Positions 6,403 to 12,459 of a stretch of DNA of 64,000 nucleotides are shown in pieces. A program made the position numbers and the translations under genes. The notes beneath the pieces are model-generated. The model had not been told where the DNA came from and ran no database searches. It saw only the letters and a list, made by a program, of their open reading frames with translations. This DNA comes from Celeribacter baekdonensis. GTDB lineage: Bacteria > Pseudomonadota > Alphaproteobacteria > Rhodobacterales > Rhodobacteraceae. The stretch lies in assembly GCF_900102315.1 (NCBI RefSeq), contig NZ_FNBL01000005.1, positions 124,001 through 188,000 on the forward strand, read 5' to 3'. Position 1 is the stretch's first letter. Every line of letters starts with the position of its first letter.

Positions 6403-8946
6403 TCAAAACCGATCCAAAAGACGGTTGAGATAGTCACGTTCGTCTTCTGGGCGGTCTTGTTCGGCAGAGCGGCGGCGGATTTCATCGGTGAGTTCTTCTG
6501 CTCGGCGATAGACGTCCTCGCCTTCGTGAAGCGGCTCGTCTGACCCAAACTGCCCAGTGTCCCCAGCCGCGCGCCCAAGCGGATCACGCCGCATTGGATC
6601 ACTGCCAGATTGTCCGCCCGCTTCGCCCTGCTGGCCCTCTTGCTCCTGCTGCGATTGCGCCTGTTGTTCGCCAAGCTGGCGCATCCCGTCGCGCAGGGCT
6701 TCCATCGCCTCGGCCTGACTGTCGAGCGCGCCGGACAAATCGTTTTGGCCAAGCGCCTCTTCGGCCTCATCCATCGCCCGATCCGCCCGATCCAAAGCGC
6801 CGCCAAGCCCCTCCTCGTCGCCACCACCTGCACCATCCATCGACTGACGTTGGCGCGCCAGTTGATCGCGCAAGGCCTGTTGACGCTCGGCCAAAGACTG
6901 ACCATTCGGCTCCGTGCCCTGCCCTTCGTCTTCCTGTCCTTCGCCCCCCTGACCTTCACCCGTCTGGGGTGGCTCGCCCTGATTCCCCTGTTCACCTTGG
7001 GGCTGACCACCGCCGAACTGTTCTTGCAGGTCAGAAAACGTATCATCATTGAGCTGTTGTTGGTCGCGCAGCATGTCTTGCAAGCCTTGCATGCTCTCGC
7101 CGCCTTGGCCCTGCCCCTCGCTTTGCGTCACACGCATATTTTCAAGCATTTCGGCCAGCATGTCCAAAAGCTGCTGCGCCTCGGCCATCCGGCCCTGCTC
7201 CATCAATTCCTGAATGCGGTCCATCAATTGTTGCAACTGATCGCCGGTGATCTGCTGGCCGTCTTGCTCGCCTTGATCGGGCATATCGGTGTCATCACCC
7301 TGCTCGCCCTGTTGCTCGGCCAATTGCTGCATATAATCGCGGGTCGCCTCGCGCAGCTCTTGCATCAGCTTTTGAATTTCCTCCGGCGTCGCCCCGTCGC
7401 GCATGGCTTGACTCAGCCGTTCCTGGGCCTGGTGCAGCCGCTCAAGTGCGTCTTTCAACTGTCCATCTTCGAGCAAAAGCGCGACTTCCCAAAGCGCGTC
7501 CGTCACCTCACCAAGCTGTGCATCAGACATCGGGTCCTCGCGCCCCTCGATCATACCGACCACCTCGCGCAGGCGGAAATAATGGCGCATATCATCGAAC
7601 ATTTGCGTCGGATCAACCGTGACCGCGCGGATCACCTGGGCGGCGCGCGCGGCGTTTTCGCGGTTCCACAACAACTCTTGGCGGACATCAATCAAAGCCG
7701 CGGCCAGCGGGTCAAAAAACCGCCGCGTCGGCAGGATGGCCTCGCCAATGGCCTCTTCGCTGGCCTGCCCGGCCTCATCCCACGCGGTGAGGGAAATCTG
7801 AACCGGCAAGCCCGCAAACGGATGTTGAGCCAGATTTTCGCCGATCATGCCTTCGATCTCGTGCCGATCCCCGATCTGCGGCAGCGGCACCGTGACCTCA
7901 AGCACCGGACGATCCTCAGGCGGCAACACATAGCCATAGCGTTTTTCCACCGCCTCCGGGTCGCGCGTGATCGTCAGCACCGCGCGCGCCACACCGAAAT
8001 CATCGGTGAGGCGGAAATTTTGCCGGGTTTCACCCGACGGCGCACGGGTCATCGGACCGATCAATTCGGCTGTGGGGGCCGCGTCGGGCTGTAGCGCCAC
8101 ATCCCACAAACGCCCCGTTGGCCCATCAATTTCGATCTCGCCCGGTTGACGCACGGCAAAATCCGGCACCGCACTTGCACCCGTAATCGGCTCGCCGGAC
8201 ACGGTTTCGGACAGGGTTAAAACCCCGTCCTCACCATAAAAGCGCACGGTCACGTTGGAGCCTTTCGGCACATCAAACTGGTCTTTCAGATCCCCCAGAT
8301 ACAGCGTCGGCTTGCCCGAATAGGCCGGGGGTTGCACCCAACCTTCCCAATTTGGTCCAGCAGCAATGTTCGACCCGGAAGCGCCCAAATCGGTGGTCGT
8401 GCGGGCCTGTTCAAGAGAGCCAAACAGGCCCCCCATGCCCAGCGCGGTCAGCGCCATCAAACGCAGCGCGTAGGGATCGGCGGCAGACAGGCGCAGGGTC
8501 GGACCGACCGCGCGCACATCTTTGAGACGCATCAGCATACGGGCGCGATGCGCGGCCCAAAGCCCTTTTGACGCCGGATCATTGGCTCCGACCAAGGGCG
8601 TATCGGTGAGCGCCTGCAACGGTTGTCCCGGTAGCGCGGCATCCACCCGCGCCAAGGCCGCATGCGGCGCGGGACGGCGGAACCGCCAGAGACCTAAGGC
8701 AAAACTGCCAATCAGCGTCAGCGCCGCCAACGCCAAAACAACGATCCGCGCCATAGTCGGCAAAAGGTCATGCAGCCCCAAAAGGGCAAGCCCGCACATC
8801 GCCATCAAGACGGAGAAAAACGGCCAAAAGACCTGCCCGATACGTTCCAGCCAAAGCCCGACAGCCGTGGCAGTCAAAGCAAAACGCACCCGGCGCGCCA
8901 AAGGCCCGTTCAGGTTGAGGGTTCGTTTTTCTTGGTCAAATCCCAT
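6403..8946 (-). CDS. DUF4175/TIGR02302 low-complexity membrane protein
   Basis: An 847-residue protein of the alphaproteobacterial TIGR02302 family. The first 75 residues contain two or three membrane helices. Residues about 180-480 form a predicted periplasmic or extracytoplasmic beta-rich region. Residues about 510-800 are very rich in Gln, Glu and Gly and helix-forming (LAEQQGEQGDD, MLAEMLENM, repeated QGEQG steps). The C terminus ends NRLLDRF. The function is unknown. It lies 48 bases downstream of lysA in the argH-lipoprotein-lysA run and is probably co-transcribed with it, an order seen across Rhodobacterales. Confidence 0.85.
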   Translation of the reverse strand: MGFDQEKRTLNLNGPLARRVRFALTATAVGLWLERIGQVFWPFFSVLMAMCGLALLGLHDLLPTMARIVVLALAALTLIGSFALGLWRFRRPAPHAALARVDAALPGQPLQALTDTPLVGANDPASKGLWAAHRARMLMRLKDVRAVGPTLRLSAADPYALRLMALTALGMGGLFGSLEQARTTTDLGASGSNIAAGPNWEGWVQPPAYSGKPTLYLGDLKDQFDVPKGSNVTVRFYGEDGVLTLSETVSGEPITGASAVPDFAVRQPGEIEIDGPTGRLWDVALQPDAAPTAELIGPMTRAPSGETRQNFRLTDDFGVARAVLTITRDPEAVEKRYGYVLPPEDRPVLEVTVPLPQIGDRHEIEGMIGENLAQHPFAGLPVQISLTAWDEAGQASEEAIGEAILPTRRFFDPLAAALIDVRQELLWNRENAARAAQVIRAVTVDPTQMFDDMRHYFRLREVVGMIEGREDPMSDAQLGEVTDALWEVALLLEDGQLKDALERLHQAQERLSQAMRDGATPEEIQKLMQELREATRDYMQQLAEQQGEQGDDTDMPDQGEQDGQQITGDQLQQLMDRIQELMEQGRMAEAQQLLDMLAEMLENMRVTQSEGQGQGGESMQGLQDMLRDQQQLNDDTFSDLQEQFGGGQPQGEQGNQGEPPQTGEGQGGEGQEDEGQGTEPNGQSLAERQQALRDQLARQRQSMDGAGGGDEEGLGGALDRADRAMDEAEEALGQNDLSGALDSQAEAMEALRDGMRQLGEQQAQSQQEQEGQQGEAGGQSGSDPMRRDPLGRAAGDTGQFGSDEPLHEGEDVYRRAEELTDEIRRRSAEQDRPEDERDYLNRLLDRF

Positions 8947-8994: not shown

Positions 8995-10260
8995 TCAAAG
9001 CCATTGAGGAATGGTATCGCGATTTATCATCTCGTCAAAGCTCGGACGCGGGCGGATGACAGCGAATTGATCGTCTTTCACCAAAACCTCGGGAATGAGC
9101 GGGCGGGAATTATATTCCGACGCCATCACCGCGCCATAGGCCCCCGCCGAACGGAAAGCGACCAAATCGCCCTCCGCCAAAAGCGGCATGTTGCGCGCCT
9201 TGGCAAATGTATCGCCGGTTTCGCAAACCGGACCAACAATGTCATAGGGCAATTGCTCAACCCCTGCACCGGGTTCGATCACTGGAATGATGTCGTGATG
9301 AGCGTCATACATCGACGGCCGCACGAGATCGTTCATCGCCGCATCGAGGATGAGAAAATCGCGGCCTTCGCCATGTTTGAGATAAATCAGCGAGGACACC
9401 AAAATCCCGGCATTGCCAGAAATCAGCCGCCCCGGCTCGATCTCGATCTCACAGCCCAGATGACCGACGGTTTTGCGGATCACATCGCCATATTCCACCG
9501 GCAGCGGCGGAGCCTCATTTGAACGCTCATAAGGAATGCCCAGACCGCCGCCGAGATCAAGCCGGCGGATGTTGTGACCATCGGCGCGCAGGGCTTCGGT
9601 CAGTTCCGCCACCTTGGTAAAGGCCAATTCAAACGGCGCAAGCTCGGTCAATTGCGAGCCGATATGAACATCAATACCGACCACATCGATGCCCTGCATT
9701 TGGCCCGCGCGGGCATAGACGTCGCGGCATGTGGCAATCGGAATACCGAATTTGTTTTCGGATTTCCCAGTGGCAATTTTTGCATGGGTTTTGGCGTCCA
9801 CATCCGGGTTCACCCGCAAGGCAATCGGGGCTTTGACGCCCAAAGACATCGCCACCTCATTGAGCGCCTCAAGTTCGGGTTCGCTTTCAACATTAAACTG
9901 ACGAATGCCGCCAATCAAAGCCTGACGCATTTCATCACGGGTTTTGCCCACGCCGGAAAACACGATCCGATCCCCCGGCAGGCCCGCCGCCTTGGCCTTG
10001 AGATACTCCCCGATCGACACCACGTCGATCCCCGCGCCCAGCTCACCCATGAGTTTGAGCACGGCAAGGTTCGAGTTCGATTTCATCGCGAAACAGACCA
10101 GATGATCCATCCCGCCCAAGGCCTCGTCGAACAGATTGTAATGGCGCGTCAATGTGGCGGTGGAATAGACATAAAACGGCGTGCCAACCTGTGCCGCGAT
10201 GTCAGACACGGGCACGTCTTCGGCGTATAAAACACCGTCTCTATAAAGGAAATGATCCAT
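8995..10260 (-). CDS. lysA: Diaminopimelate decarboxylase
   Basis: A 421-residue PLP enzyme that decarboxylates meso-diaminopimelate to L-lysine, the last step of lysine synthesis. CFAMKSNSNLAVL carries the PLP-binding lysine near residue 60. HIGSQ, the glycine-rich LDLGGGLGIPY phosphate loop and GPVCETGD (the cysteine and glutamate from the second subunit) are all present. Length and start are typical. It follows a tiny lipoprotein gene after a 37-base gap and argH before that, so one arginine-lysine transcript is likely. Confidence 0.96.
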   Translation of the reverse strand: MDHFLYRDGVLYAEDVPVSDIAAQVGTPFYVYSTATLTRHYNLFDEALGGMDHLVCFAMKSNSNLAVLKLMGELGAGIDVVSIGEYLKAKAAGLPGDRIVFSGVGKTRDEMRQALIGGIRQFNVESEPELEALNEVAMSLGVKAPIALRVNPDVDAKTHAKIATGKSENKFGIPIATCRDVYARAGQMQGIDVVGIDVHIGSQLTELAPFELAFTKVAELTEALRADGHNIRRLDLGGGLGIPYERSNEAPPLPVEYGDVIRKTVGHLGCEIEIEPGRLISGNAGILVSSLIYLKHGEGRDFLILDAAMNDLVRPSMYDAHHDIIPVIEPGAGVEQLPYDIVGPVCETGDTFAKARNMPLLAEGDLVAFRSAGAYGAVMASEYNSRPLIPEVLVKDDQFAVIRPRPSFDEMINRDTIPQWL

Positions 10261-10297: not shown

Positions 10298-10462
10298 TCA
10301 GTTCAGCGGAATGTGAATGTTAACCGAAGTGTCAGTGTAACTTCCGCGTTTGGAATTCACGCCCACGGTGGTCGACACGCCCACCTCCGGCTTGACAGGG
10401 TCGCCATCCACACCACACCCCACAAGGCCGATCATCGCCACAGCACATATAAAACGGATCAT
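10298..10462 (-). CDS. Small lipoprotein between argH and lysA (LptM/LppL-like)
   Basis: A 54-residue lipoprotein. The hydrophobic leader [16 protein letters not shown] ends in a lipobox with the acylated cysteine at residue 16, followed by [11 protein letters not shown]. The C-G-x-x-G-x-P pattern directly after the lipid-attachment site resembles LptM (YifL) and LppL, small lipoproteins encoded next to lysA/dapF in gammaproteobacteria. LptM promotes LptD/LptE maturation in the outer membrane. The start overlaps the argH stop as ATGA. Similarity covers only a few residues, so the link rests on the motif plus context. Confidence 0.75.
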
Positions 10463-11850
10463 CCGAGCACCTCTTTCCAACGCGCAATTTGTGCACGGAC
10501 CTGCGAGGGCGCCGTGCCTCCGTAGCTTGTGCGAGACGCGACCGAATTTTCAACTGTTAAGACATTATAAACGCCTTCGGTGATCGCTTCGTGAACGGAT
10601 GTCATCTCCTCCAAGCTCAAATCAGGCAAATCACAGCCCTTTTTCTCGGCCATCGCCACCAAAGCGCCAGTGACATGATGTGCATCGCGGAACGGCAGGC
10701 CCGCTTCGCGCACCAACCAATCGGCAAGATCAGTCGCAGTGGAGAACCCAGAGGCGGCGGCAGCGCGCAGATTGTCGGTGTTCGCGTTCATATCCGACAC
10801 CATCCCGGTCATCGCGGCGAGGGCCAACATAAGGTTGTCGGCGGCGTCGAACACCTGTTCCTTGTCTTCTTGCATGTCTTTCGAATAGGCCAAAGGCAGG
10901 CCTTTCATCACCATCATCAACGCGACATTGGCGCCAAAAATCCGCCCCACCTTGGCGCGGATCAACTCAGCGGCGTCGGGGTTTTTCTTTTGCGGCATGA
11001 TCGAAGAACCGGTGGAGAACCGATCCGAAAGCGCGACAAAGCGGAACTGCGCCGAGGACCAGATCACCAATTCCTCGGCAAAGCGCGACAGGTGCATGGC
11101 GGTGATGGACGCGCAGCTCAGAAATTCGAGACCGAAATCGCGATCCGCCACAGCATCCAAAGAGTTGGCGGTCGGACGGTCAAAGCCCAAAGCCTCGGCG
11201 GTCATGTGGCGATCAATCGGGAAACCCGTCCCCGCCAGAGCCGCAGAGCCCAGCGGGCTTTCGTTCATCCGGGCGCGCGCGTCTTTGAACCGGGACATAT
11301 CGCGGCCAAACATTTCGACATAGGCCATCATGTGATGACCCCAGGTCACCGGCTGCGCGGTTTGCAGATGAGTAAAGCCGGGCATGACCCAATCCGCGCC
11401 TTTTTCGGCCTGCGCCATCAACGCGCGGATCAGCGCCTCAAGGCCGGAAACCGCCGCGTCCATTTGATCGCGGGTCCAAAGTTTGAAATCGGTGGCAACC
11501 TGATCGTTGCGCGAGCGCGCCGTGTGCAACCGCCCGGCCGGTTCGCCGATGATCTCTTTAAGCCGGGATTCGACGTTCATGTGGATGTCTTCAAGCGCTG
11601 TGGAAAAGACGAACTCTCCGGCTTCAATTTCTGACAATACCGTGAGAAGGCCTTCCCGAATGGCCTGCGCATCGCTATCGGTAATGATGCCCTGTTGCGC
11701 AAGCATCAAAGCATGGGCGCGCGAACCTGCAATATCTTGGGAGGCCAGTCGTTTGTCGAAACCAATGGACGCATTGATCGCCTCCATAATCGCGTCAGGT
11801 CCGGCGGCGAAACGCCCGCCCCACATCGCGTTTGATTTCTTATCGGTCAT
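10459..11850 (-). CDS. argH: Argininosuccinate lyase
   Basis: A 463-residue enzyme that splits argininosuccinate into arginine and fumarate. The fumarase/aspartase signature [11 protein letters not shown] is present, with [13 protein letters not shown] and the H-containing [15 protein letters not shown] segment. The start [14 protein letters not shown] is the family-usual one; the open frame extends far upstream only because the opposite strand is coding. The start is 12 bases from that of the divergent thioredoxin gene, so its promoter must lie within that gene. Confidence 0.95.
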
Positions 11851-11862
11851 GGACACACCCAC

Positions 11863-12459
11863 ATGTTGAAAAATCTGATTGCCGCCACCCTTTATACGGC
11901 CCTGAGCCTTGGTGCAATTCCTGCTGCCGCACAGGACATGCAAAGCGTGATGGAGCTGCGCGAGGACAGCTTGCAAAAATTGGGGTTTCACACTGACCCC
12001 AAAGAGGTGAGTGCGTTGCCGTTCACGGCGATGGATGGTGCTGAGGAAACGCTTGCGGACTATGCGGGCAAACTTGTCCTGCTCAATTTCTGGGCCACTT
12101 GGTGTGCGCCGTGTCGCAAAGAGATGCCAGCGCTTGATGCGCTCTCCGCCGAGTTTGGCGACAAAGGGTTTGTGGTTCTGCCCATTGCGACCGGACACAA
12201 CCCCACACCCGCGATCGAAAAATTCTTTGAAACCGCTCAGATCAAGGGGCTGACGGCGCGGCTTGATCCCAAAGGCGCAATGGCGCGCGATATGGGAGTG
12301 CTTGGCCTCCCTGTCTCGATCTTGATTTCTCCGCAAGGCCAGGAAATCGCACGTATGACCGGAGATGCGGACTGGTTCTCGCCCTCCGCCCAAGCGATTG
12401 TGACCGAACTGTTGAACAAATACGACCTCACGAATGATAGCAGTGCAGTGACCCATTAG
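11863..12459 (+). CDS. Periplasmic TlpA-family thiol-disulfide oxidoreductase
   Basis: A 198-residue exported thioredoxin-like protein. The signal peptide is residues 1-23 ([20 protein letters not shown], cleavage after AAA). The redox motif WCAPC lies at 80-84 within [17 protein letters not shown], followed by the cis-proline region LGLPVSI. Relatives keep cytochrome or copper-site cysteines reduced in the periplasm; no maturation genes are adjacent, so the substrate is open. Only a weak GGA ribosome site precedes the ATG. The last 32 bases overlap the end of the convergent PAS gene. Confidence 0.88.

Follow-up and report, generated by a model that had tools for sequence, protein, structure and literature searches.

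Between argH and lysA of Celeribacter baekdonensis lies a small gene that is very probably the LptM ortholog of core Rhodobacteraceae, at the locus argH-lptM-lysA, and its product would dock on LptD via a charge-inverted contact. LptM is a small partner of the machine that places lipopolysaccharide on the cell surface. The gene is found in the window, i.e., the 64,000 nt stretch of DNA that was analyzed; the gene, its position, its relatives and the paired residues are directly seen here. Curated LptM models miss this probable charge-inverted form. That LptM is present in Alphaproteobacteria, under a shared genomic context, was proposed in the initial annotation and holds, but it is already published: the available text of Yang et al. 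2023 (PMC10567701) reports that about 57% of Alphaproteobacteria have lptM-like genes, and that the neighbours of these are conserved. New is the charge inversion at the third residue after the lipobox cysteine (Cys+3), together with a counterpart at position 275 of LptD. No report of the Rhodobacteraceae LptM branch, of the inverted residue or of its LptD counterpart was found among the open-access papers searched, supplements excluded.

Translation of the open reading frame gives 54 aa and a stop codon, and the neighbours match TIGR00838 and TIGR01048 (Table 1), which confirms the earlier description of a 54-residue lipoprotein between argH and lysA. The product displays a short signal peptide and the lipobox LVGC, and Cys16 is followed by GVDGDPVKP; the C-G-x-x-G pattern that had been pointed out right after the lipobox is thus present. 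The three genes argH, the small ORF and lysA are all on the minus strand. The ATG of the ORF overlaps the argH stop codon as ATGA, and 37 bases separate its own stop from lysA. An alternative in-frame TTG, 18 bases upstream of the ATG, is likewise open, and the usual start in relatives is the ATG at the argH stop. The ORF is matched in all 20 of the genus genomes searched (G000-G019, own genome included), always between argH and lysA, and the pooled pairwise pN/pS of 14 genus ORFs is 0.35. Thus it is a real, constrained gene and not a chance ORF. Both prolines of the mature N-terminal segment are invariant in 39/39 aligned core sequences; Cys and Gly are also invariant in 39/39, but these two are required by the ORF-picking rule. 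The window ArgH is 80-86% identical to the ArgH of named Rhodobacteraceae.

Table 1. The small lipoprotein gene and its surroundings, with positions in the window.
Feature	Position	Strand	Basis
LptM-like lipoprotein, 54 aa	10298..10462	-	translation; 20/20 genus genomes; pN/pS 0.35
Mature N-terminal segment Cys16-Pro25	10388..10417	-	alignment of 39; equivalent to E. coli LptM residues 20-29
Asp19 codon (Cys+3), equivalent of E. coli LptM Lys23, charge-inverted	10406..10408	-	
argH (argininosuccinate lyase), upstream neighbour, ATGA overlap	10459..11850	-	TIGR00838, E 3.5e-183
lysA (diaminopimelate decarboxylase), downstream neighbour	8995..10260	-	TIGR01048, E 5.7e-138
TlpA/thioredoxin-like protein, WCAPC motif, divergent from argH	11863..12459	+	PF00578/PF08534
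DUF4175 protein, downstream of lysA	6403..8946	-	PF13779, E 2.5e-245

Class-wide matches to the curated LptM model NF047847 were used to compare loci. Among 30 loci (L031-L060) kept from the best matches over the cut-off, six of them shortened by a contig end, 23 are flanked by argH and lysA with the same orientation, 3 adjoin one of these genes and 4 adjoin neither. With a fixed rule (lipobox plus Cys-Gly), an LptM-like ORF is found after argH in 75/78 family genomes, or in 64/67 when 11 genomes picked via a match to the window protein are omitted, and in 65/74 genomes of a class-wide draw. E. coli lptM adjoins dapF. In P. aeruginosa the small lipoprotein gene lppL is PA5276 and lysA is PA5277 (available text of PMC2577666), an adjacency taken from the locus tags, and LppL is likened to the window protein by gene context only. 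Since LptM-like ORFs are mostly argH-flanked throughout the class, and in view of the lppL/lysA and lptM/dapF contexts, the window gene, with its argH and lysA flanks, occupies the usual alphaproteobacterial lptM locus and shares the conserved chromosomal neighbourhood of LptM. The comparison with LppL made in the initial annotation holds as context.

Several other genes are found at these loci. A TlpA-like gene is divergent before argH in 76/80 named alphaproteobacterial loci; a protein of the thiol-disulphide type thus regularly accompanies the lptM locus, and a part in the mechanism is not implied. A DUF4175 match, as seen downstream of lysA in the window, is present in 41/80 named loci, the flanks of these loci being limited. 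In many other Rhodobacteraceae (e.g., L064 and L079), the argH-lysA gap contains an extra gene after the lipoprotein, with the conserved C-terminal end IPATFCIGVSCGLPLYLFLR and similar. This end mimics a lipobox, and the inserted gene is excluded by the ORF-picking rule.

According to the available text of PMC10567701, a 2023 AlphaFold model displays a salt bridge between Lys23 of E. coli LptM and Glu275 of LptD; the term E275 is absent from the main text of two 2025 structure papers. Lys23 is the Cys+3 residue, and the window protein has Asp at this position. The residue pair 23/275 was chosen from the E. coli model and recorded before LptD was aligned. The LptD of the same genome (735 aa; PF04453, E 3.0e-33) has Arg269 as the equivalent of E. 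coli Glu275. The register at 275 is firm, because an Arg equivalent to E. coli Arg277, two residues further on, is present in 205/207 sequences.

Genome-matched pairs were available from 207 genomes, i.e., those with both LptM and LptD. K or R at LptM Cys+3 is accompanied by D or E at LptD 275 in 97/118 genomes, and D or E at Cys+3 by K or R at 275 in 68/73; the other 16 of the 207 genomes carry other residues at Cys+3, with LptD 275 mixed. Where both residues are charged, the charges are opposite in 165/167 pairs, the exceptions being G433 (D/D) and G259 (R/R). Other misfits (LptM/LptD 275) are G073 (N/E) and G458 (L/D), and LptM K/R with a neutral LptD 275 is seen in 19 genomes outside Rhodobacterales and in 1 inside. 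All 73 genomes with D or E at Cys+3 are within a Rhodobacterales clade of 91. The ten basal family members have LptM Lys with LptD Glu (9) or Gln (1), and in six of these ten Cys+2 is V, I or L with Cys+3 still K. The covariation, with its few independent events, may bear indirectly on the predicted binding of LptM at the taco/barrel hinge of LptD.

A scan of LptD columns shows that clade history alone makes many of them correlate, and weight is therefore put on the residue named from the E. coli model. Of 503 columns that vary in charge, none is more negatively correlated with LptM Cys+3 than column 275 (r -0.89), and the runner-up is column K204 (r -0.83). Out of 659 well-filled LptD columns, only these two are predominantly acidic where LptM has K/R and predominantly basic where it has D/E. 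E. coli departs from the K204 pattern, having Lys204 in LptD together with Lys23 in LptM; K204 may possibly belong to the same interface. At other LptM positions the correlation with LptD 275 is r -0.66 (Cys+2) and r -0.18 to 0.27 (Cys+4 to Cys+11). Outside Rhodobacterales (116 genomes), 275 is D or E in 87/107 genomes with K/R LptM vs 2/9 with other residues (Fisher p 4.8e-4, relatedness ignored; p 7.3e-3 with five Caulobacterales, one of which has Asp, taken as one acid-less lineage). Seven of these nine neutral-LptM genomes (5 Met, 2 Ala) are without the acid, and the Leu and Asn ones keep it. The evidence is in the pre-named residue, the column rank and the scattered neutral cases, and not in many replicated swaps.

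The number of separate exchanges is small. In an LptD tree (207 rows, columns around 275 removed), the ten basal members fall outside a supported clade of 81 that has the D/R genomes; acid and base were therefore exchanged little more than once, on the branch leading to core Rhodobacteraceae. G033 (K/E) is inside the clade of 81, on a long branch. In an ArgH tree (131 rows), the basal G380 is within the core and G441 (D/R) is outside it, neither placement being fully supported. Independent pairs on supported branches number 2 in the ArgH tree and 5 in the LptD tree, where 3.3 agree, about 0.1 oppose and 1.6 show no difference; with acid/base coding the LptD tree gives 6 pairs, with 1.5, 0.3 and 4.2, respectively. 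None of the independent-pair tests reaches significance (median p 0.25 to 1). In a reverse test with 18 pairs differing at LptD 275, LptM changes along in 3.5, against in 0.0 and not at all in 14.5. LptD 275 often changes alone while LptM stays basic.

These counts bear on a reading in which the gene is a true LptM ortholog by position and the 23/275 exchange arose by chance on a single deep branch, with separate drift of LptD and LptM in the ancestor of core Rhodobacteraceae, e.g., with a different lipid A. The few independent switches and the independent LptD 275 changes that occur without an LptM change agree with such drift, as does LptD K204, which flips on the same branch; moreover, when the ten basal genomes are compared with 72 core genomes, the majority charge is reversed to some degree at 8 of the 659 LptD columns. 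However column 275 was fixed in advance from the E. coli model and ranks first of 503, and the loss of the acid in seven of the nine neutral-LptM genomes lies outside Rhodobacterales. A coincidence is unlikely, but it should be considered.

LptM was called by several rules. A first rule, which asked for a start codon and for a lipobox near residue 18, yielded 128 pairs and lost 24/152 genomes, several of which do carry an LptM-like ORF. A start-independent rule gave 138 pairs, of which 137 were used for the first tree, G411 being omitted as a wrong pick, and this rule was slightly loosened for the final 207 pairs. No LptM is called in 15/228 genomes with the locus. Three of these 15 loci are without argH and lysA, and a looser look at the 15 finds a plausible LptM in G396, G158 and G062, outside the counts. 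Six genomes with an LptM call have no LptD in the table, five being without a PF04453 match and G043 having a weak partial one.

A PF04453 LptD match is found in 116/120 family genomes, and LptD is in the same genome as LptM in the case of the window genome (G000). LptM-like ORFs without a PF04453 match are seen in G030, G054, G084, G134, G340, G460 (L114) and G473 (L143), and by the looser look also in G365, which has no such match. LptM call and PF04453 match are jointly absent in G102 (complete) and in G110 and G124 (incomplete). Joint absence of LptM and LptD gives no uniform picture and does not speak for the LptM-ortholog reading. In the complete 5.4 Mb alphaproteobacterial genome G102 (L444), lysA is 12 bases after argH, with no LptM ORF between them. 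The 98% complete Rhodobacteraceae genome G030 (L365) has an LptM-like ORF with CGVDGEPERP and no PF04453 match.

The gene could also be an LptM ortholog whose function has changed in Rhodobacteraceae, e.g., one encoding a free outer-membrane lipoprotein off LptD. G030, which keeps the ORF with no LptD found by PF04453, would agree with this, as would the loss of the basic residue and the scores below the model cut-offs. Against it, D or E at Cys+3 is followed by G or A, with Pro at Cys+6, in 73/73 genomes while the tail varies, and LptD covaries with Cys+3. Such a change of function is improbable.

Curated LptM models do not recognize the window protein. A Pfam search with the 54 aa sequence gave no matches at E<=10, PF13627 included; E. 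coli LptM scores 33.9 bits against PF13627 (cut-off 27.3). NF047847 gives E 0.11 and 12.6 bits, below its cut-off of 27.7. The significant LptM profile match that the initial annotation had looked to as a check did not materialize, and the protein is not a member by curated profile score; the LptM homology it had proposed is supported by the conserved locus and by the covarying LptD residue, but not by profile match. The window protein has the signal peptide and the lipobox of LptM, and also its Cys-Gly-x-x-Gly and its Pro at Cys+9, and the basic residue at Cys+3 is replaced by Asp19. In a six-frame NF047847 search of its own genome the window ORF ranks 10th of 24, with none over the cut-off; thus C-G-x-x-G following a lipobox does not carry much weight on its own. 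At E<=1, NF047847 matches 282/289 class genomes (80/289 over the cut-off) but also 12/14 control genomes, Gram-positives and archaea included (2 over the cut-off). Little can therefore be concluded from a weak match to the N-terminus of a lipoprotein, and identification as LptM by profile only was dropped as evidence, given no PF13627 match, the sub-cut-off NF047847 score and the rank of 10/24.

The sequences themselves form a gradient from recognized LptM to core Rhodobacteraceae. Products outside the family commonly have CGRKG or CGKKG followed by xLxxP or xPxxP, and NF047847 matches 40/40 of the non-family sequences at E<=1 (best 1.6e-11). Those family members whose Cys+3 is Lys have CG(R/V/I)KGDP and similar, and ten of these, a set that includes G033 and excludes G020, are matched in 10/10 cases (best 1.8e-8). 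Core members have CG(A/V)DGEPxxP and similar, with 35/39 matched (best 3.7e-4). A profile-profile comparison of the 39 core with the 40 non-family sequences, the only two sets compared, gives a probability of 95.8% and E 7.4e-9 over 26 columns, which span the signal peptide and the CGxDGxPxxP segment. The tail beyond this segment varies among lineages; the LptM tail outside Enterobacteriaceae likewise differs, as reported in the available text of PMC10567701. An unrelated small lipoprotein at the argH-lysA junction, with C-G-x-x-G by chance, would agree with the rank of the ORF among lipoprotein-like matches of its own genome and with the matching of the LptM model to control genomes, but it is very improbable given that the position is the same as that of recognized LptM genes (23/30), that Lys-bearing family members bridge both sequence types and that LptD covaries.

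The preferred reading, an LptM ortholog with an inverted contact, can be compared with the systems already described. E. coli LptM (formerly YifL; PF13627 LptM_cons/NF047847) is likewise a small lipoprotein with Cys-Gly-x-x-Gly and Pro at Cys+9 (C-GLKGPLYFP in E. coli, Cys16 plus GVDGDPVKP after the lipobox in the window), its gene is beside a diaminopimelate/lysine gene (dapF in E. coli, lysA here), and in both cases the LptD of the genome has Cys at the 173 and 724/725 columns. In contrast, the window protein scores below the cut-offs, has Asp for Lys23, is 54 aa long with an unlike tail, and is encoded at argH-lysA; in its LptD, Glu275 is replaced by Arg and Cys31 has no counterpart. As for the alphaproteobacterial LptM-like genes reported by Yang et al. 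2023, recognized members in this class are mostly at the same locus (23/30 of the best NF047847 loci) and share the motif region, and according to the available text the 2023 survey used PF13627, which misses the window protein (PMC10567701).

From the available text of the LptM papers, E. coli LptM is lipidated and in the outer membrane, has its N-terminal segment at the LptD hinge and its acyl chains at the lateral gate, and aids LptD assembly and oxidation; residues 20-29 are resolved at the taco/barrel interface (PMC12644819). The P. aeruginosa LptDE structure mentioned in the same source was made in E. coli (available text of PMC12644819), and PMC10567701, as far as its available text goes, suggests on grounds of conservation that LptM may have a role outside Enterobacteriaceae. 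A maturation role of LptM in Rhodobacteraceae is what we infer from E. coli. The product would be exported, lipidated at Cys16 and taken to the outer membrane, as suggested by the lipobox and by Gly and Val after the Cys. By analogy with E. coli, the first about 10 mature residues would bind LptD where the beta-taco meets the barrel, and the acyl chains would sit at the lateral gate. LptM Asp19 would face LptD Arg269, equivalent to the modelled Lys23-Glu275 salt bridge of E. coli with the charges exchanged. Binding may then steady the LptD hinge, as is known in E. coli, such that native, oxidised LptD leaves BAM more readily.

The cysteines of LptD place a limit on this analogy. A Cys is within two columns of E. 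coli Cys173 in 204/207 sequences and of Cys724/725 in 202/207, and a counterpart of E. coli Cys31 is found at its column in 0/207. A C-x(1-6)-C pair is near Cys173 in 201/207, and at least two C-terminal cysteines are present in only 98/207. The LptD of the window genome has Cys164, Cys167, Cys688 and Cys730 (ATG numbering). Since Cys31 has no counterpart at its column, the disulphide/oxidation route cannot be identical to that of E. coli in detail. Alphaproteobacteria thus retain LptD as the target, and with it cysteines at the 173 and 724/725 columns, but Cys31 is missing from its position.

The probable Rhodobacteraceae LptM adds a diverged branch that is missed by current LptM models. A natural charge exchange at a predicted contact would constitute sequence evidence for that contact in a distant class, and it offers a two-mutation test in E. 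coli K-12. On the whole we lean towards the view that core Rhodobacteraceae carry an orthogonal LptM-LptD pair, in which the docking salt bridge was inverted as a unit, from Lys/Glu to Asp/Arg. If this is true, LptM from Rhodobacteraceae would be expected to work with E. coli LptD only after an exchange of residue 275, and LptM would long have been under selection as a subunit of the LPS translocon throughout Proteobacteria, and would not be an enterobacterial accessory.
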